Positions 4,200 to 61,718 of a stretch of DNA of 64,000 nucleotides are shown here, in pieces. This DNA comes from Bryopsis sp. KO-2023. Lineage: Eukaryota > Chlorophyta > Ulvophyceae > Bryopsidales > Bryopsidaceae. How positions within the stretch are numbered: the stretch's first letter is position 1; the number at the start of each line of letters is the position of its first letter. The stretch covers positions 2,480,001 through 2,544,000 of the forward strand of contig BSYQ01000010.1 in the NCBI GenBank assembly GCA_030272585.1. Direction: 5' to 3'. The notes beneath the pieces were generated by a model that saw only the letters and a program-made list of their open reading frames with translations, did not search any database and was not told the origin of the DNA. Position numbers and translations under genes: made by a program.

Positions 4200-4664
4200 T
4201 TTTCCCACTTTCTTTTTTTCGATTCCTGCGCTGCCACCAAAAGACTCTAGCACGAACGATTTCGCATGGCAAAGCGAAATCCCTCGTTCTCCATCCTTTT
4301 CTTTTTCCGTTTTCTTTTCAAATTTGCCAAATTTGCCTAATTTTGCAAGAAAATGAGGAAGATCCGATCGTATCACGTAATATTAGTGGGATGGGTGTGG
4401 GTGGAAATCGAATCGTTGTCCAGACTGTTGGAATTCACACTCTGTTGGAGTTGATTTTGACTTCGTTGCTTCAAAAAAAAAAGAACGCTGCTTCTCTTGT
4501 ACATTCGCGCGTTGCAACCCGATAGCAAGCCGCTTTGATTTGCAAAAAAAAACCAAAAAAATTCGTCGCTGTTGAGTTTACGAAGAACGAAAGAAAGCAG
4601 AGTGATATAGGAGACGAACGAAAGAAAAAGATCCGCAGGGAAGGACTAGGGGACCTTAAAAAAA
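4200..4664. promoter_or_regulatory. Shared upstream region of two divergent genes
   Basis: The 465 bp between the start codons of RPL7 (minus) and the TSJT1-like gene (plus) must hold both 5' leaders and both promoters. Homopolymer runs are short here compared with gene-free DNA elsewhere in the window. I see no convincing TATA box or other named motif. The role is inferred from position only. Confidence 0.45.
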
Positions 4665-5921
4665 ATGCCGGGTTCGTTTCTGTGCTTGTGCCCGTCGAAA
4701 ACCGTGGAGACGGTCGAAGATAACTTCCTGCATCGACAAGATAAGATCGATCAGATCCAGGAGGCGCTCAAGGAAGTGACCTTCGCGGGAAAAGACAAGA
4801 TCGTGCTCTGTCTGCCTGGGGGAGGTATTGCTGCGGAAGGGCTGGGGACTAATCCCGAAGTGGCGATCGTCGGCTCGTTTCTGGCGGTGTTGTCAGGGAC
4901 GATCAGCAACTATGCCTACTTGGTCCGGAAATACTTTGTGGAAGAGTTGGGTTACGCGAGGAACGTGAGTCTGGAGGCCATCCGACAATCCTCGCCCATC
5001 CGAGATTCGGCGCTGTTGTGTAAGTTGTACGAGAGGCTCGGAACAGGGATGCTGCCGAAGCTCAGGGGGGACTTTTCCTTTTGTCTGTATGACTCGTCGA
5101 CGGTGAGGGTGTTGGCGGCGCGGGACCCGAGCGGAACCATCCCCCTCTACCAGGGACAAACGAGCGATGGATCTCTGTTCATCTCGTCGGGGGAATACAA
5201 GCCAGAAGATGCCCAGGACGTGGTAGAAATTCTTCCCGGACGGTTTAAGTACGGATGGCGAGCGCTCCCCAGAAAGTATGCGAATCCCCAGGAGCTCGTG
5301 GACACCTCCAAAAAGACATCCTCCAACGCGGCGTTGGAGGCGTTGAAGGGAATACCCATGCCGAAGAGGAGAAAAGGACAAAGAAAAGCCGTCGCGGCCG
5401 TCCCCGCGGTGCCTCAGGGCCCAAAACTGCGAACCAAGCAGGAGATTAGGGCTTGGAGCGCGTTGATTGCGCAGGATGCGATAGAGGCTTACGAGAAGGG
5501 GTACACTGTCTCGGAGTCACCGCAGTTCGGCGATGCCATGCGAACCCCGCCCAGCGCGAGCAAGAGGAGAGTCCAAGGGCGTCGCGAGACGTCTCCAGAC
5601 GAGATGGAGCGATACATCCGCAACTCGAAGTTCAAGCCTCAAGTTTTGGCCGCTCTTTTCGGTCCAACTTCGACTTCATCGCAGGATGGCAGTGCTCCGC
5701 GGTCGAGCGTTGCTGGGGATAACACCAATCACAGTGCCTCCAGTCAGTGCGTGTCGGAGTCCGTGATGACCACGAGCGAATCCAGCGGCAGTCTCCACGA
5801 CAGCAACGATGGGATGCAGAAATTTGGCGCGACTCAGACGTCAGAGGAACGAAAGGTAGATGATGTGAATGAGAAGCTCGGCGGCATCACTTTGGGGACT
5901 CGGGTGGAGGCCTCCACTTGA
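4665..5921 (+). CDS. TSJT1/DUF3700-like protein with class II glutamine amidotransferase-like fold
   Basis: A single uninterrupted frame of 418 codons. Residues about 65-200 resemble the plant stem-specific TSJT1 (aluminium-induced) family, a degenerate class II glutamine amidotransferase fold: VAIVGSFLAVLSGTISNY, then LPKLRGDFSFCLYDSS, LAARDPSGTIPLYQG and SDGSLFISSGEY. The nucleophilic Cys expected at position 2 of active Ntn amidotransferases is absent (the protein begins MPGSF), so enzymatic activity is unlikely. The family is stress- or hormone-responsive in plants, with no settled biochemical role. The C-terminal half, about residues 210-418, is a basic then Ser/Thr-rich low-complexity tail (PMPKRRKGQRK, later SSGSLHDSNDG) that makes the protein longer than plant relatives of about 250 residues. 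No intron is visible, unlike most neighbours. The start is the first ATG after an A-rich leader. Confidence 0.8.
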   Translation: MPGSFLCLCPSKTVETVEDNFLHRQDKIDQIQEALKEVTFAGKDKIVLCLPGGGIAAEGLGTNPEVAIVGSFLAVLSGTISNYAYLVRKYFVEELGYARNVSLEAIRQSSPIRDSALLCKLYERLGTGMLPKLRGDFSFCLYDSSTVRVLAARDPSGTIPLYQGQTSDGSLFISSGEYKPEDAQDVVEILPGRFKYGWRALPRKYANPQELVDTSKKTSSNAALEALKGIPMPKRRKGQRKAVAAVPAVPQGPKLRTKQEIRAWSALIAQDAIEAYEKGYTVSESPQFGDAMRTPPSASKRRVQGRRETSPDEMERYIRNSKFKPQVLAALFGPTSTSSQDGSAPRSSVAGDNTNHSASSQCVSESVMTTSESSGSLHDSNDGMQKFGATQTSEERKVDDVNEKLGGITLGTRVEAST

Positions 5922-10878: not shown

Positions 10879-11688
10879 TCATCGACTCTTCCTGGCCTGA
10901 CCAAGACTTTTTCCTCTCCTGTTCATGTCCCCCAGTTTTGCCCTCATCTCTTTCAGGTCTCCCTCCCAGTCGGTGAGCTTCTGACTAAGCTTTGCATCAT
11001 TGATGGTCTCCACCACCTTCATGGCCTCCAAAAGCTTGTGCTTCGTTCCACTGAGCTCCTTCTTCACCCCCTTCAGGTCCCCCTCAGTTGCCCCCAATGC
11101 CTTTTTCACTGTCTTCAGTTCCTCCTTCGCCTCCTCCATTGCTTCCTTTTTTTTCTTCAAGTCCACCCCAACCTTGCCCAGTTTTACTGTAGCCTCAACC
11201 AGCTGCTCAGTTCTTTCCTTCAAAGCAGACCGGGCTGCCTCGATTTTTTTCTGAAGCCATGGGAAGACAATTTTTTTCTGGTGGTCGATCGTTTTTTTCA
11301 GGTCGTTTTTTTCTTTCTTGCAGTCCTCGTTTCGCTTTTTTTCTTTCCTCAACTCTTCTTCCAGCCCTTTGTTTTTTTTCTTCAGCATCTCAATCTCTTT
11401 TTTAAGGTCGGAAACTTCTGACTCCTTCTTCGTCGCCCCCAATGTCGCGTAGTAAGAAATATGCACGAAAAAAACGAAAAGAAGAAACAAAAAGTAAAAA
11501 ACCCAAAAAACACCGGCATCCGTAAGGATAGTAAAAACAGTTTTTTTAAAGTTCGTACCGACCAAGCTCCCGAAAGTTTTTTGAAACTCGCCTCCCAAAG
11601 GTGTCCTCGCAAAGGTGTCCGTCAGTGTTATCAGAATGTTCGCCATTATCGCCAAGATATTCGCCAGTGCCAGATAGATGTTCGCCAT
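10879..11688 (-). CDS. Predicted membrane-anchored coiled-coil protein, copy 1
   Basis: An ORF of 269 codons of unknown family. From the chosen start at 11688 (MANIYLALANILAIMANIL) there is a hydrophobic repetitive N-terminus, a linker, then one strong transmembrane segment (GVFWVFYFLFLLFVFFVHIS, about residues 60-80). About 170 residues of Lys/Glu-rich heptad sequence follow (KKEIEMLKKKNKGLEEELRK; later KKALGATEGDLKGVKKEL), ending RGKSLGQARKSR. The frame also stays open upstream of the start. A second copy at 29479-30288 has exactly the same length and only conservative differences, such as ERTEQLVEATVKLGKVGV against EKSEELVEAMVKLGKVGL. That argues that the protein is maintained. It most likely has a tethering or scaffold role at a membrane, but the function is unknown. 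The N-terminus is encoded by TTCGCCA-type repeats. Confidence 0.5.
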   Translation of the reverse strand: MANIYLALANILAIMANILITLTDTFARTPLGGEFQKTFGSLVGTNFKKTVFTILTDAGVFWVFYFLFLLFVFFVHISYYATLGATKKESEVSDLKKEIEMLKKKNKGLEEELRKEKKRNEDCKKEKNDLKKTIDHQKKIVFPWLQKKIEAARSALKERTEQLVEATVKLGKVGVDLKKKKEAMEEAKEELKTVKKALGATEGDLKGVKKELSGTKHKLLEAMKVVETINDAKLSQKLTDWEGDLKEMRAKLGDMNRRGKSLGQARKSR

Positions 11689-11870
11689 TTCAAAGGAAAA
11701 AACAGTATTCGCCAAGGTCAAAGAAAAAAAACTCGCCAAAGTATTCGCCGTATTTTGTATTTTCGCCAATTCGCCAAGATAGTGTTATCGCAAGTGTTAT
11801 CGCAGGTGTCGCCAATATAGTGTTCGCCAGAGTACGCAAGAGTTCGCAGAAGCTCGCCGAGAATAACGTT
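11600..11870. repeat. TTCGCCA-motif minisatellite, degenerate copy
   Basis: The word TCGCCA recurs about a dozen times at irregular 10-25 base spacing. In the antisense direction it encodes the LANI/MANI hydrophobic repeats at the N-terminus of the coiled-coil ORF. The corresponding place in the other copy (30340-30500) holds a regular 22-bp version. Confidence 0.6.
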
Positions 11871-13221: not shown

Positions 13222-16200
13222 ATGATGGACAGGCAAAACCAATACAAAGCAGACGGCCACGGCCTCGTGGTAAGTTTTGGCCCTGTTTTTTCTTCACCCG
13301 CTGCATTTTGTTGCTTTTCAAAAATATGCCATTAATAGATTTTTCTTTCTTTTTGGGGAGAGTGGGGGGAATTTATTTTATTTTTGTTTTTTTTTGGGGG
13401 TGATTCGCTGTTTTTGTTTTTTTTTTTGGAACACATGAGAATTTGTTTGAGAGAAATGTTGTTTCAAAGAGTTCAACTGCCATTTTTTCGGCAACAGGAT
13501 GCAAAAAGTTACACACTTTTCGAAGATTTTCCTCCAATTCTGCAGCTACATTTGAAGCGGTTCGATTATGACCCAGCTAGGAGCATGATGGTTAAGGTGC
13601 TCAAAAAGAAAATAAGGGAAAATAAAGATTCGAATTAGATATTCTTGAAGGCACCCCATGTCTGACTGTTCCCAGTCTTTTCTTGTCCATAATGAAAACC
13701 GTTCTGAGTTTTAAATTCGAAAAAAAAAACCAAAATGCCTCAGAAAGAAACTCTTTTGTTTTTTCAAATTTAAAACTCAGAAGGATGCCAATTCTCAATT
13801 GTTCTTATATTTGGGGACCAACAGATCAATTCTCATTACAAGTTCGACCTGGAGCTGGATTTGGACGCGGGAAATCGAAAATATCTGGTGCCGAATGCGA
13901 ACAAGGCCGGGAATTTGTACCGATATTACACAGCGTCTTGGTGCACAGTGGGGGAGCGCACGGCGGCCACTACTTTGCATTCTCACGGCGGCGACAAATG
14001 GTTTAAATTCGATAATGAAATGGTGAAGGAGGAGGTCGATAAGCGAGCTGTAGATGATCAGTATGGCTGTGTGGTTGGTTCCTTATGGCGACCGTAACGT
14101 TGCCTTCGGCATTTTTTTCTTCGTTGGAATTTTCGAATGCGTATGCTGTGTGGTTGCGACGCAATAGACCTCGTCAGCACGGGGATACTATGAGTGAGAG
14201 GTCATGACTTTTCTAAGAGAGCGAGCATGTTTGGGTTTGTGACTCCCCCTTTTTTTTCCGATCTTTTTTCCCTTCCTCCTTCACCTTGTGGTGGTATAGG
14301 TGGATCGATTTCGGACGTGGTGTCGGAGGGTCAGCCTCTTGTTTCTATTGGTTCCGTCTGGTAGCGATTTGGACCGGGTTTTTCTTCGAATTCGTCGATT
14401 AAAAAATAAAAATAATATTTTTTTTTTATTTTTTTTTATTTTTTTATTTTTTTACCTCTACTAGCGGTTTTGACGAAGAAGTTGCGATTAGTGATCCTCC
14501 TCTTGCCACAGAAGATTTGCTTGTTGCATTACAACAAGGGGATTTCGTCGGTTTGGATCGTTCTCGGGTGGATTGTTTGTTTGAACGGTTACAGGCTCAA
14601 CGTTTGGAAACGGAAACTGGTTTAGTACAGATTCAAACTTTGTTGGATCGTCTTGATCTTGCGCCTTTTTCTAGTGGAACTGAGACAATTCACCAGGAAC
14701 TTTTAGAGAATTATTAACGCAGACTGTTACGGCTGAGGATATTTCGACTTCTTTCGCTTTGGTTTACGTTCGCGAATCCGATTGGGACCGAATCATGTGC
14801 GATGCCAGCAAGGACGATCTGGTGGAGCATGTGCGGCGAAGACTCGAGATACATTGGGATGCTTTTTTTTTTTTGTAATTTGTACTTTTTTATTTCTTTC
14901 ACGTGGAGTTTTTTTTTTTTTGGGGGGGGGGGGGAGGGGCGAGGCGCGAGGCGGGGAAGAAATGACTGTTTTGACAATAACTTGGGTGTGAAAAGGCAGT
15001 TTTGATAGTACCTTGGATTGCTGTTGTGTGTGCAATTGGTGTTTTGGGTGGTTAAAAAAACTGGTTATTTGAAAGGAAAAAAAACAACTGTTTTGAATCA
15101 GGCAGAGCAAGAGGAGAAAGAGCGCCGGCAAAAGGAAAAGCAAGAAGCCCATCTGTATGTGGTCATCAAGGTGGCATGCGACACGGATTTCTCCAGGCAA
15201 ATCGGAGACACCCATTATTTTGACCTCGTCAATTTTGAGGACATCAAAAGCTACCGAATACACAAAAAGACGACCTTCGAGGAATTCAAGGGCATGGTGC
15301 GATGTCGGTTTGTGTTTTGCTTAAAAAAAAAAGACAAAAAGTTGTGTAAAGAGAACTTCACGAGAAAAAGAATGGAGGACAGGATTTGTGCAACGCCGCG
15401 AATAATAAATTTGGTGGGGTGAATGAACAAATAAGATGAAACGAGAAGCGAGGAGGGCATTTTGATTGGAAAAAATGGATTTTTTTTTTGTGTGTGAAGA
15501 CAGTGAAGACAGAAAAACAACTTACATGAATCTTTCTTGAAATCGAAATTATTTTCCAAAAGGCCGAGTATGTATATCTTGTTTGAACTTAAAGGAACTG
15601 CTGGTTCTTTTTTTTCCCATCTTTTTCCTTGTGCAGGTTCAAACCGATTTCGGTGTGCCCTCGGACTTGCAGCGATATTGGGTCTGGTCTCAACGTCAGA
15701 ACGGCACCATCCGACCGAATTCCCCTCTGACAGACCGGAGGGAAATCGACACGGTGCTCGACTTGCAACGATTCAAGGACAAGCAGTACGCCCCTCTAGA
15801 AAAGCATGCCTTGATGACCATCAAACTTTACCTGGAAAAACCCGATGCCTCTTACGGAATGCTGAAAGAATTGGAACCCAACGACCTCCTGCTCTTTTGC
15901 AAGCTGTACGATCCTTTCAAAACGAAGCTGTGTTATGTCGGGCATATTTTCGTCGACAAGAGCATGCCTTTCAAAGAGATTTTCTGGCGGTTGAAGGCAT
16001 TGGCTGGTCTGGAGGACAGCACCGATATCGCTGCCTACGAGGAAGTGAGATTCGAACCGTCTGTCATGTGTAATGAGCTCGACGCTGATGCCAGTCCTGA
16101 GAGGGTGAGGGGGGGCAAAAAAATAACAAAAATAACAAAAAAAAAGTGAAATGACCATATGTAGAAACAAATAAAATGAATAAAAAATTGAAATAGCAAT

Positions 16201-17957
16201 TTTAGAGGATTTGTCTCGTCAATGTTTTGCGGTCACATAGTTCTAAATCTGAATTCCCATTCGAGTTATTCTCATTATTACTAATTGTTTTGAATTTCCT
16301 GGATAAAGTACTCATAAAAAGGTGTGGTTCTCTTTACCTTCGGTTCAGACTCAGTTTTTGCAAGGAGATATCATTTGTATCCAGCTGCGAGTGACGCCGG
16401 AGGCCAGAAGCAGGGAGCTCCGGCATCCGACCGTCAAAACTTTTTTGGAGTACGTTCAGAACAGCAAAACTGTCAATTTCAGACCACTTTACAATCCAAA
16501 GGTATGAACTGTTTTTTTGGGTTTTTTGGTTGAAAAACAACGATATAAATACTGTTACCGCTCCTTTACTTTTCCCTGTCCCCCCCCGCCCGAAGAAAAA
16601 AAAAAAGAATCTAATAGCAGAAAGAAATTAAGTGATATCAAAAGATGGAGGTCTGTTTTCAGGGGGAGGAAAAAGGAACAGAAAAGCAAAAAAAAAAAAA
16701 GAAAATTAAGAAATATTTTTTGTTTTATTTTATTATTATTTGATAAAAATGTTTACACCTTGGTCGAAATTAACATTCTGTGTTTTCTTTTTTTTCCTAA
16801 AAAAAAAGAAAGATGATGGGTTCAAACTGGAGCTTTTGAAAACGATGTCATACGATGAGGTCACCACAGAACTGGCGAAACATTTGGACGTGGACAATCC
16901 TTATCGAATTCGTCTGACTCAGCACAACGTGTCCGCGCACATGCCTCACAGAAGCCCCATCAAATTCCAAGGCATGGACTCTTTGGACGTCATGATCTTG
17001 CACTCCCGCCAATACACCAACATCCTCTACTACGAGATCCTGGATATGCCGCTGCCATACCTGGAAAAACTCAAGTGCATGAAGGTAAATTTTTACAACG
17101 ACAAGGCGGAGCTGGAGGGGGAGCATCGGATTTGGCTACCGAAAGACAACACGGTGGAGGATTTGATCGGGGCTCTGAAGGAGAAGCTTGGGGAGGATTA
17201 CGAGGGGAAGGCATTCAGATTGATTGAAGGCATTCAGTGTTGGCATCAAAGATCTTCAAGGTGGGTTGATATGCAGCTCTGTGTAGTGTTATCCCCAAAC
17301 AATGAGAAAGCGTTTTAGTAAGGCCACTCAAGCACTGGTGAAAGAGGAGGGAAACACTGTGCAGAGGCAGATTTTTCCGGTTTTTTCGGGGGGTTTTTCC
17401 CCTTTTTTAATGTGGAGTGGGTGGTATGCGATGACCTCAATTTCCTTCATTTTGGTTTGTCCCAGATCTGCGATCCTCAGGCCACTTTGGAAACGCTGCG
17501 AGAAGGTTACTGGACTTTCAGAGCGGAGGTGGTGCCTCTGCCGGACAGACATGGCAACCTCTTCATCCATGTCTGTCATTTCCGATCGGACGAAAACTCC
17601 GTGAGCGTCATGACGTTCGGGGACCCCTTCTGGCTTAAGATCCGAGCGACAGACACGGTGGCTGATATCAAACCTCAAGTGAAGGCGAAACTGGACGTGT
17701 CTGACGAGGAATTCGCCAAGTGGAAATTTGCTTACCATCCCCGCCAGATGCAGTCCATCGAGTATTTGGTGGATGAAGACATAGTGTTGGAAAAATTCGC
17801 TCGGGTGCCGAGTTACTCTGAGTCAGACGATACGAAATACTATGGAGATAGCGGGGCGTTTTTGGGGTTGGAGCATGAGGACAGCAAACCCGTCAAGAGA
17901 TCGGTGCCCTCCCGTTATGGCGTTTATGAGCGAGGAATTCGGATCTACTCAAACTGA
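13222..17957 (+). pseudogene. UBP12: UBP12/13 (USP7)-like ubiquitin C-terminal hydrolase, 5'-truncated, copy 1
   Basis: The family removes ubiquitin from nuclear and cytosolic proteins. Exons seen: about 13222-13269, 13498-13596, 13825-about 14072, 14723-14848, 15102-15296, 15637-16104, 16349-16501, 16809-17260 and 17466-17957. They give the second half of the catalytic domain (YKADGHGL, then DFPPILQLHLKRFDYDP and VHSGGAHGGHYFAF) and nearly the whole ubiquitin-like C-terminal half (LVYVRESDWDRIMCD; VKTFLEYVQNSKTVNFRP; DEEFAKWKFAYHP), ending RGIRIYSN. The MATH domain and the Cys box are absent; the sequence meets an LRR fragment instead. Breaks: the His-box is shifted out of frame by a pair of compensating indels (13922-13980), no GT donor is seen after 14848, and an extra GGCATTCA at 17230-17237 shifts the frame. 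Other exon phases fit well. It is most likely a pseudogene, although assembly errors could mimic some of the breaks. Confidence 0.75.
14463..14717 (+). other. Coding-like block inside a UBP12-like intron
   Basis: After a good acceptor (TTTACCTCTACTAG) an 84-codon frame runs GFDEEVAISDPPLATEDLL to HQELLENY and a TAA. It lacks homopolymers and prefers T-ending codons (GTT, GAT, CGT), unlike the flanking UBP12 exons. A short exon-like stretch at 14300-14360 (SISDVVSEGQPLVSIGSV) splices to it in phase. It has no counterpart in plant UBP12 proteins. It may be an inserted exon, a piece of another gene, or an enlarged 5' part of the exon at 14723 with one frameshift. Confidence 0.3.
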
Positions 17958-23327: not shown

Positions 23328-26183
23328 GCAGAGCAAGAGGAGAAAGAGCGCCGGCAAAAGGAAAAGCAAGAAGCCCATCTGTATGTGGTCATCAAGGTGG
23401 CATGCGACACGGATTTCTCCAGGCAAATCGGAGACACCCATTATTTTGACCTCGTCAATTTTGAGGACGTCAAAAGCTACCGAATACACAAAAAGACGAC
23501 CTTCGAGGAATTCAAGGGCATGGTGCGATGTCGGTTTGTGTTTTGCTTAAAAAAAAAAGACAAAAAGTTATGTAAAGAGAACTTCACGAGAAAAAGAATG
23601 GAGGACAGGATTTGTGCAACGCCGCAAAGAATAAATTTGGTGGGGTGAATGAACAAATAAGATGAAACGAGAAGCGAGGAGGGCATTTTGATTGGAAAAA
23701 ATGGATTTTTTTATTGTGTGTGAAGACAGTGAAGACAGAAAAACAACTCACATGAATCTTTTTTGAAATCGAAATTATTTTCCAAAAGGCCGAGTATGTA
23801 TATCTTGTTTGAACTTGAAGGAACTGCTGGTTCTTTTTTTTCCCATCTTTTTCCTTGTGCAGGTTCAAACCGATTTCGGTGTGCCCTCGGACTTGCAGCG
23901 ATATTGGGTCTGGTCTCAACGTCAGAACGGCACCATCCGACCGAATTCCCCTCTGACAGACCGGAGGGAAATCGACACGGTGCTCGACTTGCAACGATTC
24001 AAAGACAAGCAGTACGCCCCGCAAGAAAAGCATGCCTTGATGACCATCAAACTTTACCTGGAAAAACCCGATGCCTCTTACGGAATGCTGAAAGAATTGG
24101 AACCCAACGACCTCCTGCTCTTTTGCAAGCTGTACGATCCTTTCAAAACGAAGCTGTGTTATGTCGGGCACATTTTCGTCGACAAGAGCATGCCTTTCAA
24201 AGAGATTTTCTGGCGGTTGAAGGCATTGGCTGGTCTGGAGGACAGCACCGATATCGCTGCCTACGAGGAAGTGAGATTCGAACCGTCTGTCATGTGTAAT
24301 GAGCTCGACGCTGATGCCAGTCCTGAGAGGGTGAGGGGGGGCAAAAAAATAACAAAAATAACAAAAAAAAAGTGAAATGACCATATGTAGAAACAAATAA
24401 AATGAATAAAAAATCAAAATAGCAATTTTAGAGGATTTGTCTCGTCAATGTTTTGCGGTCACATAGTTCTAAATCTGAATTCCCATTCGAGTTATTATCA
24501 TTATTACTAATTGTTTTGAATTTCCTGGATAAAGTACTCATAAAAAGGTGTGGTTCTCTTTACCTTCGGTTCAGACTCAGTTTTTGCAAGGAGATATCAT
24601 TTGTATCCAGCTGCGAGTGACGCCGGAGGCCAGAAGCAGGGAGCTCCGGCATCCGACCGTCAAAACTTTTTTGGAGTACGTTCAGAACAGCAAAACTGTC
24701 AATTTCAGACCACTTTACAATCCAAAGGTATGAACTGTTTTTTTGGGTTTTTTGGTTGAAAAACAACGATATAAATACTGTTACCGCTCCTTTACTTTTC
24801 CCTGTCCCCCCCCGCCCGAAGAAAAAAAAAAAGAATCTAATAGGAGAAAGAAATTAAGTGATATCAAAAGATGGAGGTCTGTTTTCAGGGGGAGGAAAAA
24901 GGAACAGAAAAGCAAAAAAAAAAAAAGAAAATTAAGAAATATTTTTTATTTTATTTTATTATTATTTGATAAAAATGTTTATACCTTGGTCGAAATTAAC
25001 ATTCTGTGTTTTCTTTTTTTTCCTAAAAAAAAAGAAAGATGATGGGTTCAAACTGGAGCTTTTGAAAACGATGTCATACGATGAGGTCACCACAGAACTG
25101 GCGAAACATTTGGACGTGGACAATCCTTATCGAATTCGTCTGACTCAGCACAACGTGTCCGCGCACATGCCTCACAGAAGCCCCATCAAATTCCAAGGCA
25201 TGGACTCTTTGGACGTCATGATCTTGCACTCCCGCCAATACACCAACATCCTCTACTACGAGATCCTGGATATGCCGCTGCCATACCTGGAAAAACTCAA
25301 GTGCATGAAGGTAAATTTTTACAACGACAAGGCGGAGCTGGAGGGGGAGCATCGGATTTGGCTACCGAAAGACAACACGGTGGAGGATTTGATCGGGGCT
25401 CTGAAGGAGAAGCTTGGGGAGGATTACGAGGGGAAGGCATTCAGATTGATTGAAGGCATTCAGTGTTGGCATCAAAGATCTTCAAGGTGGGTTGATATGC
25501 AGCTCTGTGTAGTGTTATCCCCAAACAATGAGAAAGCGTTTTAGTAAGGCCACTCAAGCACTGGTGAAAGAGGAGGGAAACACTGTGCAGAGGCAGATTT
25601 TTCCGGTTTTTTCGGGGGGTTTTTCCCCTTTTTTAATGTGGAGTGGGTGGTATGCGATGACCTCAATTTCCTTCATTTTGGTTTGTCCCAGATCTGCGAT
25701 CCTCAGGCCACTTTGGAAACGCTGCGAGAAGGTTACTGGACTTTCAGAGCGGAGGTGGTGCCTCTGCCGGACAGACATGGCAACCTCTTCATCCATGTCT
25801 GTCATTTCCGATCGGACGAAAACTCCGTGAGCGTCATGACGTTCGGGGACCCCTTCTGGCTTAAGATCCGAGCGACAGACACGGTGGCTGATATCAAACC
25901 TCAAGTGAAGGCGAAACTGGACGTGTCTGACGAGGAATTCGCCAAGTGGAAATTTGCTTACCATCCCCGCCAGATGCAGTCCATCGAGTATTTGGTGGAT
26001 GAAGACATAGTGTTGGAAAAATTCGCTCGGGTGCCGAGTTACTCTGAGTCAGACGATACGAAATACTATGGAGATAGCGGGGCGTTTTTGGGGTTGGAGC
26101 ATGAGGACAGCAAACCCGTCAAGAGATCGGTGCCCTCCCGTTATGGCGTTTATGAGCGAGGAATTCGGATCTACTCAAACTGA
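23328..26183 (+). pseudogene. UBP12: UBP12/13 (USP7)-like ubiquitin C-terminal hydrolase, more truncated, copy 2
   Basis: Exons 23328-23522, 23863-24330, 24575-24727, 25035-25486 and 25692-26183 match those of copy 1 at an offset of 8226. Only the ubiquitin-like C-terminal half is present (HLYVVIKVACDTDF to RGIRIYSN). No part of the catalytic domain is here, so it cannot be a protease. The same extra GGCATTCA (25456-25463) breaks the frame, showing that the lesion predates the duplication. Differences from copy 1 include Ile to Val in NFEDVKSYRI and Leu to Gln before EKHALM. It is a duplicated pseudogene. Confidence 0.8.
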
Positions 26184-29478: not shown

Positions 29479-30288
29479 TCATCGACTCTTCCTGGCCTGA
29501 CCAAGACTTTTTCCTCTCCTGTTCATGTCACTCAGTCTTGCCCTCATCTCTTTCAGGTCCCCCTCCCAGTCGGTGAGCTTCTGACTGAGCTTTGCATCGT
29601 TGATGGTCTCCACCACTTTCATGGCCTCCACGAGCTTGTTCTTAGTTCCGCTGAGCTCCTTCTTCACCCCCTTCAGGTCCCCCTCCGCCTCTCCCAATGC
29701 CTTTTTCACTGTCTTCAGTTCCTCCTTCGCCTCCTCCATTGCTTCCTTTTTTTTCTTCAAGTCCAGTCCCACCTTGCCCAGTTTTACCATAGCTTCCACC
29801 AGCTCCTCACTCTTTTCCTTCAAAGCAGACCGGGCTGCCTCGATTTTTTTCTGAAGCCATGGGAAGACAATTTTTTTCTGGTGGTCGATCGTTTTTTTCA
29901 GGTCGTTTTTTTCTTTCTTGCAGTCCTCGTTTCGCTTTTTTTCTTTCCTCAACTCCGCTTCCAGCCCTTTGTTTTTTTTCTTCAGCATCTCAATCTCTTT
30001 TTTAAGGTCGGAAACTTCTGACTCCTTCTTCGTCGCCCCCAATGTCGCGTAGTAAGAAATATGCACGAAAAAAACGAAAAGAAGAAACAAAAAGTAAAAA
30101 ACCCAAAAAACACCGGCATCCGTAAGGATAGTAAAAACAGTTTTTTTAAAGCTCGTACCGGCCAAGCTCCCAAAAGTTTTTTGAAACTCGCCTCCCAAAG
30201 GTGTCCTCGCAAAGGTGTCCGTCAGTGATATGAGAATGTTCGCCATTATCGCCAAGATAGTCGCCAGTGCCATGTAAACGTTCGCCAT
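29479..30288 (-). CDS. Predicted membrane-anchored coiled-coil protein, copy 2
   Basis: 269 codons, same length and layout as 10879-11688: start MANVYMALATILAIMANIL, transmembrane segment in GVFWVFYFLFLLFVFFVHIS, then a long Lys/Glu-rich coiled coil (KKKNKGLEAELRKEKK; KKALGEAEGDLKGVKKEL), ending RGKSLGQARKSR. The frame is open much further upstream, to 30723 (414 codons), but that extension is read from a 22-bp minisatellite and an F-run and differs between copies, so the shorter start is preferred. Two intact copies whose differences are mostly conservative suggest a functional small family. No named domain can be assigned. Confidence 0.5.
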   Translation of the reverse strand: MANVYMALATILAIMANILISLTDTFARTPLGGEFQKTFGSLAGTSFKKTVFTILTDAGVFWVFYFLFLLFVFFVHISYYATLGATKKESEVSDLKKEIEMLKKKNKGLEAELRKEKKRNEDCKKEKNDLKKTIDHQKKIVFPWLQKKIEAARSALKEKSEELVEAMVKLGKVGLDLKKKKEAMEEAKEELKTVKKALGEAEGDLKGVKKELSGTKNKLVEAMKVVETINDAKLSQKLTDWEGDLKEMRARLSDMNRRGKSLGQARKSR

Positions 30289-30339
30289 TGCAGAAAAAAA
30301 GAAAAAAAAAACAGTAGGTATTCGCCGTGTTCGCCGCGC

Positions 30340-30500
30340 TTGTTCGCCAAGTGTTCGCCTTGTATTTTCGCCAAAGTAATCGCCTGTATTCGCCAAAGTA
30401 ATCGCCTGTATTCGCCAAAGTAATCGCCTGTATTCGCCAAAGTAATCGCCTGTATTCGCCAAAGTAATCGCTTGTATTCGCCAAAATGTTCGCCAAGATG
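30340..30500. repeat. 22-bp minisatellite (TATTCGCCAAAGTAATCGCC)
   Basis: About five head-to-tail 22-bp units at 30365-30482, flanked by degenerate TTCGCCA words. All three minus-strand frames are open through it (QAITLANT, GDYFGEYR, RLLWRI). It is an expanded version of the irregular array at 11600-11870. Confidence 0.8.
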
Positions 30501-31110
30501 TTCGTAGAGTTCGCACAGGGTTCGCCGAGAATAACGTTGCTTCAAGAAAGTTTGTTTGCAGAGGAAGGAAAACCGTAGAACTCCGGAATTTATGGGGTCC
30601 GCCGCTGTTCACGGATTTCCGACCGTCTGACATTCGCACACATGACAGAATCATTCGAGGTAAATCCAGAAACTCAACGTCGCGGCGGGCGATGTTCCCT
30701 TGCTGCCGTCCCTTCTGGGGCAAGTGCTCGTGATTGCGACTGCATCCAACCAGTTTATTTTCGAAGAGTCGACAGAAAATTACTTCTCCTGGTCTGCATT
30801 AAAAACAGCGAGTCTTGAAAAGAGTGAGATAGCGCGCGCGCGTGGTTTCATTCGACCTCCTTCCAGATAAACATGAATGGATGGATGTGGATGCATCATG
30901 ACAAGTTCGTGAATGATATTGGGCAGAGATCATGCACCACCAGGTCATGGCTTTGTATAGTTTGGAATAATTCGATCCCCAAATACACTGCTTGCTGTGC
31001 ATTATTGCTGTTGCAAAGTGGTGGACCTGTTTTTGATTCGATTTGGGGAAGGCTGTGTGCTGGTGAAGATGGTAACTATAACAGTAGCAGACATGGACCA
31101 ATGACCTGAG

Positions 31111-40998: not shown

Positions 40999-43532
40999 AT
41001 GCATCTCAAAGTCGCGGCTTGCTTCGTGCTGTTGTTCGCTGTTGCGTCGGCCCAGACCGAAGCAGGTGAGTTTCAGTGGCTGTCTCTGTTTCCCCTTCCC
41101 CCCCAGTCATACTCTCCGCTGCTGCGTGAGTATATGAACTGCCCCCTTGTGAATGAATCGATCAGAGTCACTTTCGCCGCTTGTTTGCTTGCAAATGCTG
41201 TTGGAAGAACTAAGGATTTTCGCATCGCTGGCTTCCGATCGATACCCCTCTTCCTTTTTTCTTGTGAATCACCGTGCGTTCGATCGAGAACATTGCTCGT
41301 GTTTTTTTCTATCTGCAGAATTGACGAGGGTGCCGCAGCTTTGCCCAGACCTGAGTCCTCCTATCGTCTGTATCACTTTCCCATGCGACCCCTGTCCGAA
41401 GCCGCCCACCAGTGGTAATGTCGCCAGCTGGCAGCCAATGAATTGCTATTAATGATTGATTGATTGATTGCTAATGAATTGCTGACCTGGGTTCAAATGC
41501 TGATTTCTGAATCCTGGGAGTGCTCTTCTCATGAAAAGGGAGAAATGTCCAGCTCAGATTGGTATATATATTTTTTTTTTGCAGAACAAACAGTGATACT
41601 CAGTTCCTTTTCTGAGGATGTTTTTTCTTTTCGGTGGGTGTTTTTGGCTGAAGAAAGTTTTTCTCGTGTTGCAGACATCTGTTCGCTTCCATCGGATTCG
41701 GGCCCTTGTGAAGCTGCTATTCAAAGGTGGTTTTTCAACAAAAAGACCAACCAGTGTGAAGAGTTCATTTATGGAGGCTGCCTGGGTAACAAGAACAATT
41801 TCGAGTCCAGGAAGGCATGTGAGATGAGATGTGGCCAACCCGTCGGTGAGTCAACCTCTGGATTTCGTGGTTGGATTTTTGAGAGTTGCTGCTTTTATGA
41901 AGGTCCAAGCTTTGGTCATTCTGTTGATATTTTTGGGTGGTATCGATCGCTATTTTTTTTGTGGGGCTATTTATGAAGGGGGGGAGGGGATTTACTGAAT
42001 AAATTGACAAATGCATTCTGAGATGTGTGGAATCTTTATGTTTCAGACATTTGTCAGCTGCCCTCTGAGACCGGCTTCTGCAAAGCCAGGATTGAGAGGT
42101 GGTTTTTCAACAAAAAGAGCGGCTCGTGTGAGAAATTCATTTGGGGAGGCTGCGGAGGCAACAAAAACAATTTCACGACCAGGGAGAATTGTGTCGCCAG
42201 CTGTGGTGGCCCACCACCACCTCCTGTTGGTAAGTGGCCCTACTTCCCCCCCCCCCCCTTTTCAAGCCCCTTCAAGCTGTATATATGACCAAGAACAGTT
42301 TCCTGTCTGATTAGGGTATTTCTGAAGTTTGTCTGAATTCCAATCATTCCTGGCAATTTTATTTGTACTCTAAAAACTTTACCATAGAATTTCTGGCACT
42401 GTTTCGTTTTATCACTGCATTGTTTTGTCGATGTTTTTTCTCTGTCTTTTGTTTATTTATTTTAAACTCCAGTCCACAGGTTAATCTGGATTTTTTTTTT
42501 ACTTTTTTTTTGGGGGGGGGGCCGATTTGTTCTTTTCTGATTGGATGCATCAGTAATGTGGGTGTTTTTTGGGCAGATGTGTGTAAGCTGCCGAAAGAAA
42601 TTGGCCCCTGTGATGGTTCCTTCCCTAGATACTTTTTTAACCCTGCTTCAAAGCGCTGCGAGAAATTTTTCTGGGGGGGTTGTGGAGGCAATAAAAACAA
42701 TTTTGAGAAGCTGGAAGAGTGCGAGAAATCCTGTGGTGGCCCTACTGGTGTGTGGCTTTTTTTTTAAAGCAAACAGGGGGGGTGTAAATATACACTGTAG
42801 CTTGGGTTTACGGAGTTTACTTTTTCAGTCTTTTTTTTTTGCCTGCAAGATTAATATTCTCCGAAGACCTAATTTATTGTTTGTTTGTGGGGTTTTTTTT
42901 CCTCCTCACAGATATCTGCAAGCTGCCGGCTGTAACGGGCCCATGCCGGGCTGCCATCCCTCGTTGGTTTTTCAATTCTCTTAGCGGCCAATGTGAGAGG
43001 TTCACCTATGGAGGGTGCAGAGGCAACAAAAACAATTTCCAGACCATCGAGGAGTGCAAGAAAGCATGTGAGTATTTTATTTTATTTTAAATTATTTTTT
43101 ATTTTATTTTATTTTATTTTATCTTACTTATTTTCCCCTCTCGCATCTTTGTTCTCATGTGTGTGTGCAAAACACTGCTCAGTTCAATATCGATGTTGCA
43201 TGTCTGACATGGTGGTGTTGGTGCAATTTTTGCTTGCAGGTGGTTCCACGACCTGCTCCCCACTGGTAAGAAAAAGCCAGTTCTTTTTTCGACCCCCTTG
43301 ATATCACTGTCGGTGTTACTGTTGCTTGGACACTTTATTATAATTACCACTACATGAGTTCAAAGTTTCGATGCTTGTTTTTTTTTCCCCTGTTTAGGGT
43401 ACGAGATGCTCTAATCAAAAGCAGTGCTGTGGGGGTCCTAAAACGGAGTGCTGTTCCCCATTGGGCGTGAGCCCAGGCTTCGACTTCAACGGAATCTGTG
43501 TCCAGGCAGGAAAATGCTTCCTCAAGGGTTAA
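40999..43532 (+). CDS. Secreted protein with four Kunitz/BPTI domains
   Basis: Predicted extracellular serine-protease inhibitor of 334 residues. Exons: 40999-41065, 41319-41414, 41675-41845, 42047-42229, 42577-42747, 42912-43067, 43240-43265 and 43398-43532, all with GT-AG ends. Exon 1 encodes a signal peptide ([19 protein letters not shown]). Exon 2 is a short Pro/Cys-rich linker ([14 protein letters not shown]). Exons 3-6 each encode one complete Kunitz domain with six Cys and the GGCxGNKNNF box; each is bounded by phase-1 introns. The residue after the second Cys (P1) is Glu, Lys, Asp and Arg in domains 1-4, so only domains 2 and 4 look like trypsin-type inhibitors. Exons 7-8 encode a second Cys-rich module ([16 protein letters not shown], ending [11 protein letters not shown]). 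Introns carry the same homopolymers as neighbouring genes, arguing against contamination. The Kunitz family is best known from animals. Confidence 0.9.
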
Positions 43533-56356: not shown

Positions 56357-59300
56357 TTAATATTCCCACATCGACAACCGACATGGCTTCACGAAATCAA
56401 CATGAGTCAAAAACTTGCTTTGGTCTGGATCATTAACCACACACCTGTGCCTAGACACATATCCATCAAACAGACACGGTCCATACCAAAATGCTTTCAA
56501 CTTTTCCCCTTCAGACCTCATTCGAGTGTGGTCGTAACACCAAACCCACTGCCCAACCTTGTAACTTTCCTCCACGAACTTTTGTTTGGATTGTCTTTTC
56601 TGTCGACCAAGTGCATCTCGGAACCAAGCAACGCCGACATCATTTCTCCATTGTTGATCAGAAATCGGCTTATCCCATATATCTCTCCTTTGCATCAGCT
56701 GCCTGGGAGGAAAACCTGTAGCATCATGCGGCATTTCCTGGATCAACTTTTCGGCTTCCTGGACTTGCTGAGGCCACTCCGTTATCATCTTGTCATCAGT
56801 CATGCGCTTAATGCGGTCCTCCAGTGTGCGGTGGTACCTTTCAATCAACCCTGCACTCTTATGGGAGTATGGAGGCACATACTCGTGCTTGATCCCAAAC
56901 TTCTCCATTACAGTCAAAAATCGTCGCGAAGTAAACACAGCAGCATTGTCAGTCATAACAACCTGAGGCTGCCCATGTGATAGTATCCAAACTTCCAGAG
57001 CTTGACTCACAGCAACAGCATTTGCACTTGGCACAGGCCTTGCTTCAGCAAATCGGGAGCAGTGATCAATGGTGGTTACCAGATACATGGAGCCATCAGT
57101 CCCCTTTGGGAAAGGCCCAACCACGTCCATGCTGACTGCTTGTCCAGGCCACCCCCCTCGTTTCGTATCTCCCCATGGTGCCTTCTCCCTTGGTCGCTCA
57201 TATTTTTGACAGACGACACAAGCGTGCACATAGGACTCCACAATAGGCCGAGATATTTTTTCTCCTCGCATTCGCAACACCTTCAACATTTTCGCGACGC
57301 CAAAATGGCCCCTGTGCGCTTCCTTAAGAAGTTGGTTTATTCGCTGCTTCCTTTCCTCGTCAACGTGGTATAGAGTCAGCTTTGCTCCTGTCTCATGACT
57401 CGCCCAACGTGAAAGTAAGTCGGCAAGCACATTGACTTTACCTGGCAAGTGCGTAAAACGAAGATTGCCGCCGACCGTGTAATTTCCTGTGATATAGCTG
57501 AGCAGACGCAGCATCCTTAGATCGGTATCGTCAGTCAAGCTCCCCGAATTAAACTTTTTAGCCGACCCTTCGGAATCGGTAAAAACCTGCACATTTGCTC
57601 CTCCCGTAATCCACGCTACTTTCTTTAGCGCGCGAACAATTGTTTGCGCTTCACCTAGGAAGCTGGATACTGCCCTTTTGCCCGGAGAGTTCAAATGTGA
57701 TCCCAAAAACACAAGCTGATCACCTTGCGTTAATGCATATCCCCCGGCGGCCGACGACCAATCCGTGTACAGTTGGAAGTCCTCCCCTGGCTGCTGCATC
57801 CGCATATCGTACACTGCACTGAGAACGTCCGCCACCACTGTTTGGAAACGTTCGTTGACGAGATCCCAATCCGCTTCTCGCCCTACAGCCGATAATTCTT
57901 CGTACATTGCCTGTACTTTCCTCGCAAACCCAGGCACGTGTCCTTTTACTACGTTCAGCATTCCGAGCGCCTGTTGTAGTGTCTTACGCCCTTGTATTTT
58001 TGGTAATCCTTCACGCAGCTTTTGGCAGTACGGTTCCAAGCTTACTGTCCCTTGTGAAACCTCAAATCCGAGGAAAGTGACTCGGCTTTTCTTCAGCTGA
58101 GCTTTCTCCTTTTTCACTTTAAATCCGAATCGGTCCAAGATTTGAAAAAGGGATTGTAGCTTTCGGTCGTGTTCCCACTCATTGCGGGCTCCGATGATAA
58201 GATCATCAATGTAAACCTCGGCGTCCAAATCGGGAAATATCTTCCGAGCTTCTTCCAGTACACGAGTGATAATAGAATGAAAAATTAGTGCGCTCCCGTT
58301 AAATCCTTGCACTAATCTCCGAAACCTGTACCGCTTCTTCCCCATGCTGAAACAGAAATATTGGCTGAGCTCTTCGTCAATTCCCAGATTAAAGAAACCA
58401 TCCTTGAGATCAATTACCGAAAAAACCCGGTATTCGGGATTCAGCCGCGATAGAATGGTTTTTACGGGAGTGAGAGGAGTTTTCCAGGTTCGAAAAAGCT
58501 TGTTGATTCGCCGACAGTCCAACGTAATTCGTACCGCTGTGCTCCCTGGTTTTTGGAAAACCAAGGGCTGTGAAAACAGTCCGCGTTCATCCCAACGCAA
58601 CTCTTTGACGATCCCCCTTCGTTCGAGGGATGCGATCTCGGCTTCGGCTGCTCCTTCCTGTCCCATGGACAACGGCTGCCAGTCACTGGAAGCGCTAAAG
58701 CTCGCAGTTCCGATTTGTTCTAGGTCAGACATCGTGATAGTGAGAGCGGCCATATCACGTGATAACCCACTCGAATCTGGTGACAAATCAAAGACTCGAG
58801 GAAATCTTTGCATAAGTTGAGACAGACACTCATCGTGACTTTCAGGTTCGAATAAGTCGTTGCTCAGAACTTCTGCGTTTACACCATGAGTCTCCCCCTG
58901 GACATCCCACTTTCCGTATCGTCCCCACTTAGAACGCCGAACATCCCAAACTTTTGTTTCACTCCGCTCTGTCCCTCTTTGTTCCTCTTTTCGCCGAATC
59001 CAACTTCCTTCCTTTCCATGTCCTGTAGAACTTCGCTCCTGTTGCCTCCAGTCAGTCTCTGCTTTTCGTATATACGGCTGTTCAGAAGCACTACGTCGAA
59101 TTCTGGACATCGCACATCGACCATCAATGTCAGTCACCTCCTGTAAGCGTCCTGGTATAAACCACGCCCTTGTCTTTGGGGTCACATGCTGTATTTCACG
59201 GCTATCATTGACGAGATATCCAAATAAAGTGCCCCCCACCCGCTGTTTCATCACCAATCTAATCCCCTTTGTATTAAGACAGTCAATAATAGGTCCCCGA

Positions 59301-59502
59301 ACGCCTTGAAGCTCATAAGGCAAACTCAAAACTGCAACCTCCCCTGGTCCCAAAACAACACTTCGGTTAAGATAAAAAACGACCACGTCCTTGTACTGTT
59401 CGGGATAGTACTCCACCTCCTGAGTTAGCTGGATTCTTATGCCTTCCTTGTTCGTCCTACCATCGTTTCCTGAATGCACGGACGACTCGCACCCAGGACT
59501 CC
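56357..59502 (-). CDS. Retrotransposon Pol (RT, RNase H, integrase)
   Basis: Frame -1 relative to gag. The first in-frame ATG is at 59479, but translation probably enters by frameshift at 59503-59509. Order of parts: a linker resembling the protease tail; reverse transcriptase with ITLDCRRINK, FSVIDLKDGFFNLGIDEEL and the catalytic YIDD in AEVYIDDLIIGA; RNase H with QLYTDWSSAAGGYAL and VFTDSEGSAKKF; integrase with a HHCC zinc finger (CVVCQKYERP) and the DDE core (SMDVVGPFPKG; VVMTDNAAVFTSRR; LIERYHRTLEDR). It ends CRLSMWEY. The frame has no stop or break. It encodes the enzymes for copying and inserting the element. Confidence 0.92.
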
Positions 59503-61443
59503 TTTTTTTGTATCTTCTTGAGTACAGACAGCGGGCTGCACTTTGGCTTTCTCCAAAAAAATCGCCGTGGCCAGCTTGGCTCCCTTCTTAAGCAGGACTG
59601 GACAACTTCGCTCATTGTCCACACCAATGACGATAGGCTCTCCTTCTGTGGGCCCAGCAACCAGTTGCGAATGCACACGTAACCCATGTTTATCTGCGTG
59701 TACGTTTCGCGGCTTAACAGCCAGAACCACATTCCCGTGAAGAAAGCATCGAGCAGAGGAAACGACTTGTGTAGTTCGTCCAGGCCCCAGTAAGGTGTCA
59801 TTTCCTAGAGTCAGTACACATTCTCCTGAGTCTGCTTGGGTCTCCTTTTTTTGCCCTGCTGATGCTTCCTTAGTAGTAGCTGAAAAACAGATTATTTCTG
59901 CCTCTGTTTTTTTGTCTACCAAACGATCAGTCCCTGGGTCTATGATAAAGCCTAATTTCCCGATGGCCTCTTTTCCCAGAATGCTCCGTCCATGCCCTTC
60001 CAAAATAGTGAACTGCAGCTCAGACTGGTTCTGCCCGACTTCGACCATTGCTGTGGTTGTTCCGAGTGATTGTACACTGTCCTGTGTGATGCCCTGAATA
60101 GACATCTTTCCTGGATGAAGTGGAAGTCCAAACTTTCGTAACGTCTTCTCATAGAGAATACTGACTGCAGCTCCTGTGTCAATCAAGAACTTGACTTGCT
60201 GTCCTTTGATAACCCCATTGACATGCATAAGTCTTCTGTTCTGTTGGCTGCCATCCGAAGTATTCCCCACCCCCACATATGCTTCGTCTCCTTCCGAGTC
60301 AGAATTCATCCACACCGTGCTGACAGTGTTTTCTTCTTTCGTATCCACATGCTTGACTGGCTTTCCTGCAGTGACCCCCTTCCCAGACATAGGCTTTCCT
60401 GTCAGTGGTTTCTGCGAAGGACCTCCCCCCTCCGTCTGCGCATTGGTGACTATGTCAGTAAGTCTTTCGGCTAGCCAGGGATTCCGCATGGCCTTTTGGA
60501 CTGTTGTCAAAAGTTCGTTCATACGCGAAAGCTGAAGTGGGAACGTTACCAATCCCTTGCCGTTGATCGGAAATACTTCCAGTTTGTCTTCACCCTCCAT
60601 ATAACTCTCTGCCGAGTGTACTTTTGCTTCCTTGTTTCCTGCGAGGCCCAAAGCTTCCCAGTCGCTGGCTAGCGAAGTGGCGTCTTCAAGCGTGGTCGGC
60701 TTACGCGTTTCGACTTGAACGCGAATATGGGGGTGAAGTCCCGCCAAGTAGTGCCCAACCAATTCTTCCTCGCTAGCTTCTGGTATTCTGACGGCCAGTT
60801 TGCGAAACAGAGCGTTGTACTCTTGGACACCCTTCGTTCCTTGAGAGCAGTTGCGTATCAGTCTTCGAACCCTTGTGTTGTCATCCTTCCTTGCAAATTG
60901 ACTCTTCATCTTTCCTCGTAGCAGCTCAAAAGAGAGAGTCCGTATGTCAGTTCGTTCCAAAAGAACCCTGTACCAGCTTTTTGCGAAACCACGCAACATA
61001 GTCCCGACAAAGCGCACCCGCGCAGTCTCAGAGCTTTCACCTATCAACTCAAGATATTCGTGTATTCCGAACCACCAATCCTGGAAGCTTTCGTCAGGTT
61101 TTTCCCCAGTAAAATATTCGGGCGTACCAAACTTTACTTTGGCCACTGTATGGTGACGGACCCCACTTTCAATTGATGTTCCGTTTCTTCTTGCTTCACG
61201 GCCACCTGGGCTGGGTACCGTAAAGACCTCTTCATATTCACTTTCTGGTGGAATGGTTACCCGTTCTGGGGTTGGCCTCCGGCCTTGCGAAGCCTCCAGT
61301 GCCGACATGCGTAGTTCCAACTGCGAAAACTCTTCCCGTAGGCTTGCTTGAATAGCCCTCACAATTTCTGACTCCATGGCGGTTGCCTGCCCCAGTTGTG
61401 AGCCCTCCGCCAAAATCTCTCCAGGTTCTCCAGGCTCATTCAT
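59437..61443 (-). CDS. Retrotransposon Gag-protease
   Basis: 668 codons from the ATG at 61443, which directly follows the primer-binding site. The N-terminal part is coiled-coil-like (QASLREEFSQLELRMSALEA). The middle has the retrotransposon capsid signature (DWWFGIHEYLELIGESSETA; GFAKSWYRVLL; GHYLAGLHPHIRVQVETRKP). The C-terminal third is an aspartic protease with the active-site triad in KFLIDTGAAVSILYEKTL and the flap-side ILGKEAIGKLGFI. No CCHC zinc knuckle was found, which is unusual for gypsy Gag. The frame is also open upstream into the LTR. It ends VGRTRKA, 66 bases past the slippery site. Confidence 0.9.
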   Translation of the reverse strand: MNEPGEPGEILAEGSQLGQATAMESEIVRAIQASLREEFSQLELRMSALEASQGRRPTPERVTIPPESEYEEVFTVPSPGGREARRNGTSIESGVRHHTVAKVKFGTPEYFTGEKPDESFQDWWFGIHEYLELIGESSETARVRFVGTMLRGFAKSWYRVLLERTDIRTLSFELLRGKMKSQFARKDDNTRVRRLIRNCSQGTKGVQEYNALFRKLAVRIPEASEEELVGHYLAGLHPHIRVQVETRKPTTLEDATSLASDWEALGLAGNKEAKVHSAESYMEGEDKLEVFPINGKGLVTFPLQLSRMNELLTTVQKAMRNPWLAERLTDIVTNAQTEGGGPSQKPLTGKPMSGKGVTAGKPVKHVDTKEENTVSTVWMNSDSEGDEAYVGVGNTSDGSQQNRRLMHVNGVIKGQQVKFLIDTGAAVSILYEKTLRKFGLPLHPGKMSIQGITQDSVQSLGTTTAMVEVGQNQSELQFTILEGHGRSILGKEAIGKLGFIIDPGTDRLVDKKTEAEIICFSATTKEASAGQKKETQADSGECVLTLGNDTLLGPGRTTQVVSSARCFLHGNVVLAVKPRNVHADKHGLRVHSQLVAGPTEGEPIVIGVDNERSCPVLLKKGAKLATAIFLEKAKVQPAVCTQEDTKKGVLGASRPCIQETMVGRTRKA
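59503..59509 (-). promoter_or_regulatory. Predicted -1 ribosomal frameshift site
   Basis: In the gag frame the sequence reads ACA AAA AAA GGA, so the heptamer A AAA AAA fits the X XXY YYZ rule. A -1 slip here leads directly into the pol frame (RSPGCESSVHSGNDGRT) without a stop, and the gag stop lies downstream at 59437. A stimulatory RNA structure was not identified. Confidence 0.65.
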
Positions 61444-61456
61444 GGCTCCGAAACCA
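61444..61456 (-). other. Primer-binding site
   Basis: Element-sense TGGTTTCGGAGCC directly follows the 5' LTR. It starts with TGG, complementary to a tRNA CCA end; the matching tRNA 3' end would be GGCTCCGAAACCA. This is not the usual initiator-Met sequence. Confidence 0.7.
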
Positions 61457-61718
61457 TATAATAACGAGACTTTCCGACTGATTCGTGAATGGGTACAACA
61501 CACAGAGAACACACAGTCTTGGCCCAGAAGGGACTTACAAGGATATTGCAACTATTTCCATCCATCAATAAATATCTGTTCCCGTCCTGTACTGCCTCAT
61601 TACTCACAGTACCTCTTCCTTAGTACTGCCTCTTTACAATACACATTCCCGTACTTTCCTAACCCATCTTCCTATCTCTTGCGTCATCCACCTGACTCCA
61701 CCCTCTCAATCCTTTACA
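61457..61718 (-). repeat. 5' LTR (element sense)
   Basis: 262 bp, begins TGTAAAGG and ends TTATTATA in element sense. Should contain the element promoter; matches 56074-56335. Confidence 0.92.

Follow-up and report, generated by a model that had tools for sequence, protein, structure and literature searches.

A predicted four-Kunitz protease inhibitor gene with animal-style phase-1 exons in a Bryopsis-type green alga

The stretch of DNA analyzed here (the window) comprises 64,000 nucleotides (nt) of the Bryopsis sp. KO-2023 assembly (91.1 Mb, 28 contigs), namely positions 2480001–2544000 of contig BSYQ01000010.1, our C10, and the gene under study lies at 40999–43532 on its forward strand. Rebuilding the gene model from the sequence gave eight exons (Table 1) and a 334-aa protein in which a signal peptide, recognized by eye, is followed by a short Cys-rich module, four Kunitz domains (D1 to D4) and a Cys-rich tail. 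The start and the end coincide exactly with those of an earlier reading made from the letters alone (the sequence-only reading). Splicing was deduced from open frames and splice-site consensus: each of the seven introns is of the GT-AG type, the frame stays open up to the stop codon that ends at 43532, and introns 1 to 6 are in phase 1 and intron 7 in phase 0.

In a Pfam search of the 334-aa protein, the sole family at E up to 0.01 was Kunitz_BPTI (PF00014), which we take to be MEROPS family I2. It covers four stretches with an E-value of 1.2e-83 and a score of 275.6 bits against a cut-off of 21, in agreement with the four domains that the sequence-only reading had named. All four domains carry the spacing C-x8-C-x15-C-x7-C-x12-C-x3-C and the core GGC.GNKNNF, and thus the complete six-cysteine arrangement. 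D1, D2 and D3 each correspond to exactly one exon flanked by phase-1 introns on both sides (class 1-1), with full agreement of exon and domain borders. D4 is a class 1-1 exon as well, except that intron 6 splits the codon of its sixth and last cysteine (T|GT); the earlier claim of one exon per Kunitz domain between phase-1 introns therefore holds for D1 to D3 and needs this correction for D4. Besides the Kunitz exons, exon 2 is a fifth class 1-1 exon, and by eye it resembles the beginning of a longer 1-1 exon in a second C10 gene near 2.94 Mb (C10:2.94M). Protein searches with this longer relative and with the C-terminal segment returned self-matches only; a copy of the C-terminal segment on contig C18 is visible by eye, so the search was too strict for counting copies.

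Table 1 Exons of the four-Kunitz gene model, in window coordinates. P1 residues were read from the sequence; identities are nucleotide identities to the C18 paralogue
Feature	Position	Strand	Remarks
Exon 1, signal peptide (22 residues, by eye)	40999..41065	+	Ends in phase 1; 89.6% identity to C18 exon 1
Exon 2, short Cys-rich module (19 residues)	41319..41414	+	Class 1-1; no Pfam match at E up to 0.01
Exon 3, Kunitz D1, P1 Glu	41675..41845	+	Class 1-1; PF00014 81.7 bits
Exon 4, Kunitz D2, P1 Lys (CKARI)	42047..42229	+	Class 1-1; PF00014 73.3 bits
Exon 5, Kunitz D3, P1 Asp	42577..42747	+	Class 1-1; PF00014 76.2 bits
Exon 6, Kunitz D4, P1 Arg	42912..43067	+	Class 1-1, Cys codon T|GT split by intron 6; PF00014 81.7 bits
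Exon 7, 26-nt linker	43240..43265	+	Phase 1 to phase 0; 75.0% identity over 20 nt
Exon 8, C-terminal Cys-rich segment (knot-like, by eye) and stop	43398..43532	+	76.1% identity over 109 nt

A paralogue on C18 matches the window gene in its first exon and in its final two exons (identities in Table 1), which enclose one Kunitz exon, and its intron phases are 1, 1 and 0. This Kunitz exon is 156 nt long like that of D4, has the same split Cys codon as D4, and is 74.8% identical to D4 compared with 65.4, 65.6 and 68.4% to D1, D2 and D3; because of this highest identity, D4 is the best counterpart of the single exon. Since the first and last exons are common to both genes and the paralogue has one Kunitz exon, exons were copied or lost as units, and D1 to D3 together with exon 2 appear to have been added to the window gene, or lost from the C18 gene, as whole phase-1 exons. 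The four domains would most likely descend from a class 1-1 Kunitz exon that was duplicated in a gene whose paralogue has one such exon, and recombination within phase-1 introns would have kept the frame, allowing exons to be copied, lost and moved as in animals. Intron-to-intron identities between the two genes were not used, being inflated by the global alignment of unequal introns and in several cases no better than shuffles.

A six-frame search of the assembly gave 15 Kunitz matches that pass the Pfam cut-off, located on C1, C3, C5, C7, C10, C13, C17 and C18 (C1, C3, C5, C7, C10 and C13 measure 3.1–11.4 Mb each), and the same search found none in 14 prokaryote control genomes (0/14). The matches group into ten genes: the window gene with four domains, two-domain genes on C7 and at C10:2.94M, single-domain genes on C13, C18, C1, C3, C5 and at C10:2.26M, and a degenerate single-Kunitz copy of the C18 type on C17 (L014), which starts in phase 1 and has a stop within its Kunitz exon. 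The C7 gene is intronless and has a C-terminal hydrophobic stretch. All 12 intact Kunitz exons that are preceded by an intron start in phase 1, the two remaining domains being those of the intronless gene; at C5 and C10:2.26M the open frame extends upstream past the acceptor, and the phase calls lean on the phase-1 donor of the preceding exon, judged by eye. The split codon lies at −2 from the first cysteine in seven of these 12 exons (D1 to D4, C13, C18 and C5), the same start position as in the Kunitz exon of human APP. For a phase background, we called by eye 19 introns in four further genes of this assembly, which fall into phases 0/1/2 as 10/5/4; one USP7 intron (donor near 17262) was excluded as its junction was not callable. 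Compared with the 5/19 of this background, 11/11 of the Kunitz exons entered in the test are in phase 1 (Fisher p = 8.7e-5, with a small hand-called background and paralogous exons that are not independent), as are six of the seven introns of the four-Kunitz gene (p = 0.02) and 8/8 of the Kazal exons described below (p = 5.8e-4). Exons within one family are not independent, and all of these p values serve as guides only.

The Kunitz module was found in differing contexts: with Kazal-like exons, with PA14 and EGF-like modules, alone, and in four copies, with Kazal and EGF scoring under the cut-off here. The gene on C1 runs from a signal peptide through a Kazal-like exon to the Kunitz exon, and the one on C3 from a Kazal-like exon through a private Cys-rich module to the Kunitz exon (Kazal_2 E-values 0.0028 and 0.019, both under the Pfam cut-off). 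The gene at C10:2.26M joins PA14 (1.3e-5), Kunitz (5.3e-6), an EGF-like exon (EGF_3 0.055, under cut-off) and a hydrophobic exon at joints that are phase 1 by eye. Pfam Kazal itself has nine matches over the cut-off in the genome and none in the controls (0/14). We read by eye eight Kazal exons, covering six of the nine matches and two neighboring exons (the matches in L037 and L039 and a ninth without a locus were left out); all eight start in phase 1, and seven were seen to end in phase 1. TSP_1 behaves otherwise, in that eight of its 13 matches lie within open frames of 802–894 codons, and Sushi had no match in the genome or in the controls. In a small sample called by hand, the Kunitz family of a green alga shows exon-domain agreement, symmetrical phase 1 and non-random phase use; these are the tests that the excerpted part of a review on exon shuffling applies to modular proteins (PMC8001218).

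The identification of the host as green relies on a plastid contig and not on the genes around the four-Kunitz gene. The sequence-only reading had called these neighbors plant-type, which fits few of them: trehalose-phosphate synthase, USP7, a nucleotide-sugar transferase, a bicarbonate transporter and an MFS protein could be named in the window, and none of these is known to be plant-specific, while an open reading frame (ORF) at 4650–5918 passes the cut-off of the plant-named DUF3700 but scores higher to the general GATase_7. The assumption of a green host itself was borne out. In two 10-kb stretches of C28 (91,672 bp), we recognized by eye rbcL, ATP synthase and ribosomal protein genes, psaB and photosystem II genes; the best matches of rbcL are what we take to be green algal and plant Rubisco chains, and psaB scores 1701 bits to PDB 6igz, presumably photosystem I of Bryopsis corticulans, versus 1577 for the next chain. 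C27 (356,152 bp) holds mitochondrial ATP synthase subunit 9 by reading and has a GC content of 55–57% over 10 kb; the mitochondrial genome of B. hypnoides is given as 408,555 bp with 57.90% GC (PMC11852573). Because the plastid contig carries a psaB closest to 6igz, the host is identified from its sequence as a Bryopsis-type siphonous green seaweed.

Candidate targets of the four-Kunitz protein are numerous. The trypsin family (PF00089) has 198 matches in the genome, which seems large for a green-plant genome; the matches are to exon pieces and hence represent fewer genes. Among the matches listed, dense groups lie on C4 at about 1.3–2.6 Mb and on C14 at about 1.1–1.4 Mb. We read four protease stretches and found the serine-site exon in three (C7, C9 and C3), each with the aspartate of the trypsin specificity pocket (Asp189) in its serine-site region, beside GDSGG or NDSGG; the C4 stretch is without this exon in frame. 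On C7 (L009), a protease gene at about 690–1780 on the reverse strand, whose hand-joined protein matches Trypsin with an E-value of 7e-54, stands head-to-head with the intronless two-Kunitz gene at 2332–3078 on the forward strand, in which both P1 residues are Arg. Because of the trypsin-type proteases in the genome and this pair with Arg at P1, we read the window gene as a nuclear Bryopsis-type gene for a secreted inhibitor of trypsin-like (S1A) serine proteases with four Kunitz (BPTI-type) heads, with a probability of about 0.62. Splicing in vivo, secretion, inhibition, target and role are all predictions from the sequence here. D2 and D4, with Lys and Arg at P1, would be the likely trypsin-blocking heads, and D1 and D3, with Glu and Asp, would probably act as spacers or bind other proteases. 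The protein may restrain trypsin-family proteases of the alga itself, or those of grazers or microbes, when the giant cell is wounded. Such a role in wounding or defense is suggested by Bryopsis biology: in the excerpted account of B. hypnoides, extruded protoplasm aggregates and grows into new individuals (PMC3038852).

Several observations weigh against this reading. PF00089 also matches in 11 of the 14 prokaryote controls, so that a family match alone is no proof of a trypsin-like enzyme, and the stretches read number only four. The apparent enzyme-inhibitor neighbors on C7 are a single case and may be due to chance among so many matches. P1 is basic (Lys or Arg) in only five of the 12 aligned domains (D2, D4, both C7 domains and C13), and two of the four heads of the window protein have an acidic P1. 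Secretion is predicted from a signal peptide judged by eye. As to the exon architecture, the C18 comparison fits both a gain and a loss of D1 to D3, the intronless two-Kunitz gene means that class 1-1 exons are not universal in the Kunitz family, and the 1-1 layout is not general to extracellular domains: the C-type lectin domain (PF00059), which is common in animals, has matches at 12 places in the genome, and all three readable exons among six loci follow a candidate phase-0 acceptor.

Among solved structures, the nearest are the multi-Kunitz animal inhibitors SmCI, boophilin, TFPI and bikunin, which contain several six-cysteine Kunitz domains as the algal protein does; SmCI aligns over three domains of it (2.1e-45). 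The algal protein differs from these inhibitors in its green host, its four domains, the flanking Cys-rich module and tail, and the two acidic P1 residues. Plant ‘Kunitz’ inhibitors of the STI type are of an unrelated fold and family and have only the name and the inhibition of serine proteases in common with the algal protein, which matches PF00014 alone. Bacterial Kunitz proteins, mainly from Myxococcota, possess the same domain, with up to 70% identity to D4 and sometimes several copies per ORF, but unlike the algal gene their ORFs are uninterrupted and their hosts are bacteria. The class 1-1 modular proteins of Metazoa are alike in having one domain per exon, phase-1 flanks, several genes and repeats within one gene, whereas the excerpted review confines them to animals (PMC8001218). 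With its green plastid contig, the host is not a metazoan, and by the published definition the algal gene stands outside the class 1-1 shuffled family, though it works like a member.

A phylogeny of the domains, which the sequence-only reading had put forward as a check, was run against animal and bacterial sequences and turned out to be uninformative. The tree was built on 53 columns from 12 algal, 10 animal and 63 bacterial Kunitz domains, with no protist or other algal sequences; each bacterial locus contributed at most a single domain, and the algal C5, C10:2.26M and degenerate C17 domains as well as the second domain of HAI-1 were left out. Of its 82 inner branches, 37 are open and 17 starred, the bootstrap was not settled, and no group forms one clade. 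The labels are more clustered than expected by chance (15 changes versus a shuffle mean of 21, with 0/200 shuffles as low), but the window domains, for which a specific animal orthologue was looked for, have no resolved placement among the animal ones. D4 pairs with a Myxococcota domain (L042; 95/80, 70% identity), D3 pairs with a bacterial domain (90/80), and domain 1 of C10:2.94M groups with SmCI domains (99/93 and 100/92). We consider that the tree gives no ground for a conclusion on origin, and it was not used for one. The bacterial set comprises 64 confirmed loci (L042–L105) of 106 pattern matches, most of them with titles from Myxococcota or Deltaproteobacteria; 63 of the 64 contain 91 domains in total and L103 contains none, and two complete Sorangium chromosomes contain three of the loci. 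Myxococcota often have Kunitz domains, sometimes with many per ORF, and some were also seen in Bacteroidota and in a cyanobacterium; a Planctomycete locus (L049) has nine full Kunitz patterns. The Kunitz domain of L081, on a 4-kb contig of Defluviimonas aestuarii, groups with the first domain of bikunin (100/98) and may be mammalian contamination of a bacterial assembly. A viral source was rejected, as neither the whole protein (7 pattern matches) nor the 12-domain alignment (41 pattern matches) had a confirmed relative in viral contigs.

The four-Kunitz protein could serve some end other than protease inhibition, being anti-grazer or structural instead; Kunitz folds have been reused for other roles in animals, and the acidic P1 residues of D1 and D3 would suit such a function, but the basic P1 is kept in D2 and D4 and the genome has many trypsin-family matches, which makes this explanation unlikely. 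That the gene came into the assembly by contamination or on a chimeric contig is exceedingly improbable, as the sequence-only reading had rightly judged: it is located within a 5.1-Mb contig, its paralogues are on seven more contigs, some of 11.4, 8.2 and 7.0 Mb, the similarity of the first and last exons ties it to the C18 gene, and contamination would have to account for 15 Kunitz matches spread over eight contigs.

Three histories could have placed such exons in the alga. Ancient inheritance, in which class 1-1 Kunitz and Kazal exons arose before animals and plants diverged and disappeared from land plants and many algae, is a tentative possibility that draws on the 1-1 exons common to two different inhibitor modules and on the many divergent Kunitz copies; against it, work cited in the excerpted review found no evidence that exons were shuffled in Monosiga brevicollis or Arabidopsis (PMC8001218). 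Divergence also counts against a horizontal transfer of intron-bearing Kunitz DNA from an animal, for instance a marine grazer, followed by expansion, since the presence of 15 divergent matches on eight contigs, and of Kazal as another 1-1 module, suggests that the exons have long resided in the genome, and the algal domains lie neither together nor within the animal ones in a tree with 37/82 inner branches open. Such a transfer would account for the −2 codon shared with the APP exon, for the best PDB match being SmCI, a three-Kunitz protein of a marine annelid, for the 99/93 and 100/92 grouping of C10:2.94M domain 1 with SmCI, and for phase-1 exon ends like those that the excerpted review describes in animal modules (PMC8001218), and yet we regard it as rather unlikely. 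Acquisition from bacteria such as Myxococcota, with later gain of phase-1 introns at AG|G proto-splice sites near the end of the signal peptide, is similarly improbable. The 64 bacterial loci, three of them in the complete Sorangium chromosomes, and the pairings of D4 with Myxococcota (95/80, 70% identity) and of D3 with a bacterial domain (90/80) are consistent with it, and the excerpted review attributes the bias towards phase 1 to proto-splice sites close to where signal peptides are cleaved (PMC8001218). It would require that introns of the same phase were gained on both sides before any exon was copied, the tree it leans on is mostly open with an unsettled bootstrap, and some of the loci from metagenome-assembled genomes possibly represent eukaryotic contamination.

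The Kunitz domain itself is well known; what is unusual is its presence in a green alga as class 1-1 exons that are repeated within a gene and mixed with other modules. In its excerpted part, the review holds exon-shuffled modular proteins to be confined to animals, sees next to no evidence for them in other eukaryotes, and terms the predominance of class 1-1 modules mysterious (PMC8001218). The algal layout runs contrary to that restriction and leaves three options, an independent replicate of shuffling, modules much older than animals, or transfer of intron-bearing genes; if it is an independent replicate, it offers a test of the account of the phase-1 bias by signal peptides and proto-splice sites. 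In addition, the many trypsin-family matches suggest an extracellular proteolysis system in a plant lineage. We speculate, with some doubt, that animal-style 1-1 shuffling evolved or survived in a green-plant lineage, where secreted and membrane-bound protease inhibitors would be built from exchangeable Kunitz, Kazal, EGF-like and private Cys-rich exons; together with a large trypsin-like family, they might form a coagulation-like network that seals wounds and rebuilds the single giant cell. By titles and opening lines, none of the papers listed on Bryopsis, seaweed genera and Chlorophyta dealt with green-algal Kunitz domains, the publication describing the Bryopsis genome (Ochiai et al. 2024, Plant J 119:1091) falling outside this scope.

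Elsewhere in the window, a USP7-like C-terminal gene segment occurs in two near-identical copies, at 15507–17957 and 23733–26183, with a spacing of about 8.2 kb. The ORFs at 10879–11784 and 29479–30798, both on the reverse strand, are similar, and in each a membrane-like stretch precedes a long coiled coil; a Pfam search on the former, and not on the latter, found no family above the cut-off. At 56357–61551 on the reverse strand, long overlapping ORFs look by eye like a Ty3/gypsy-type retrotransposon polyprotein.

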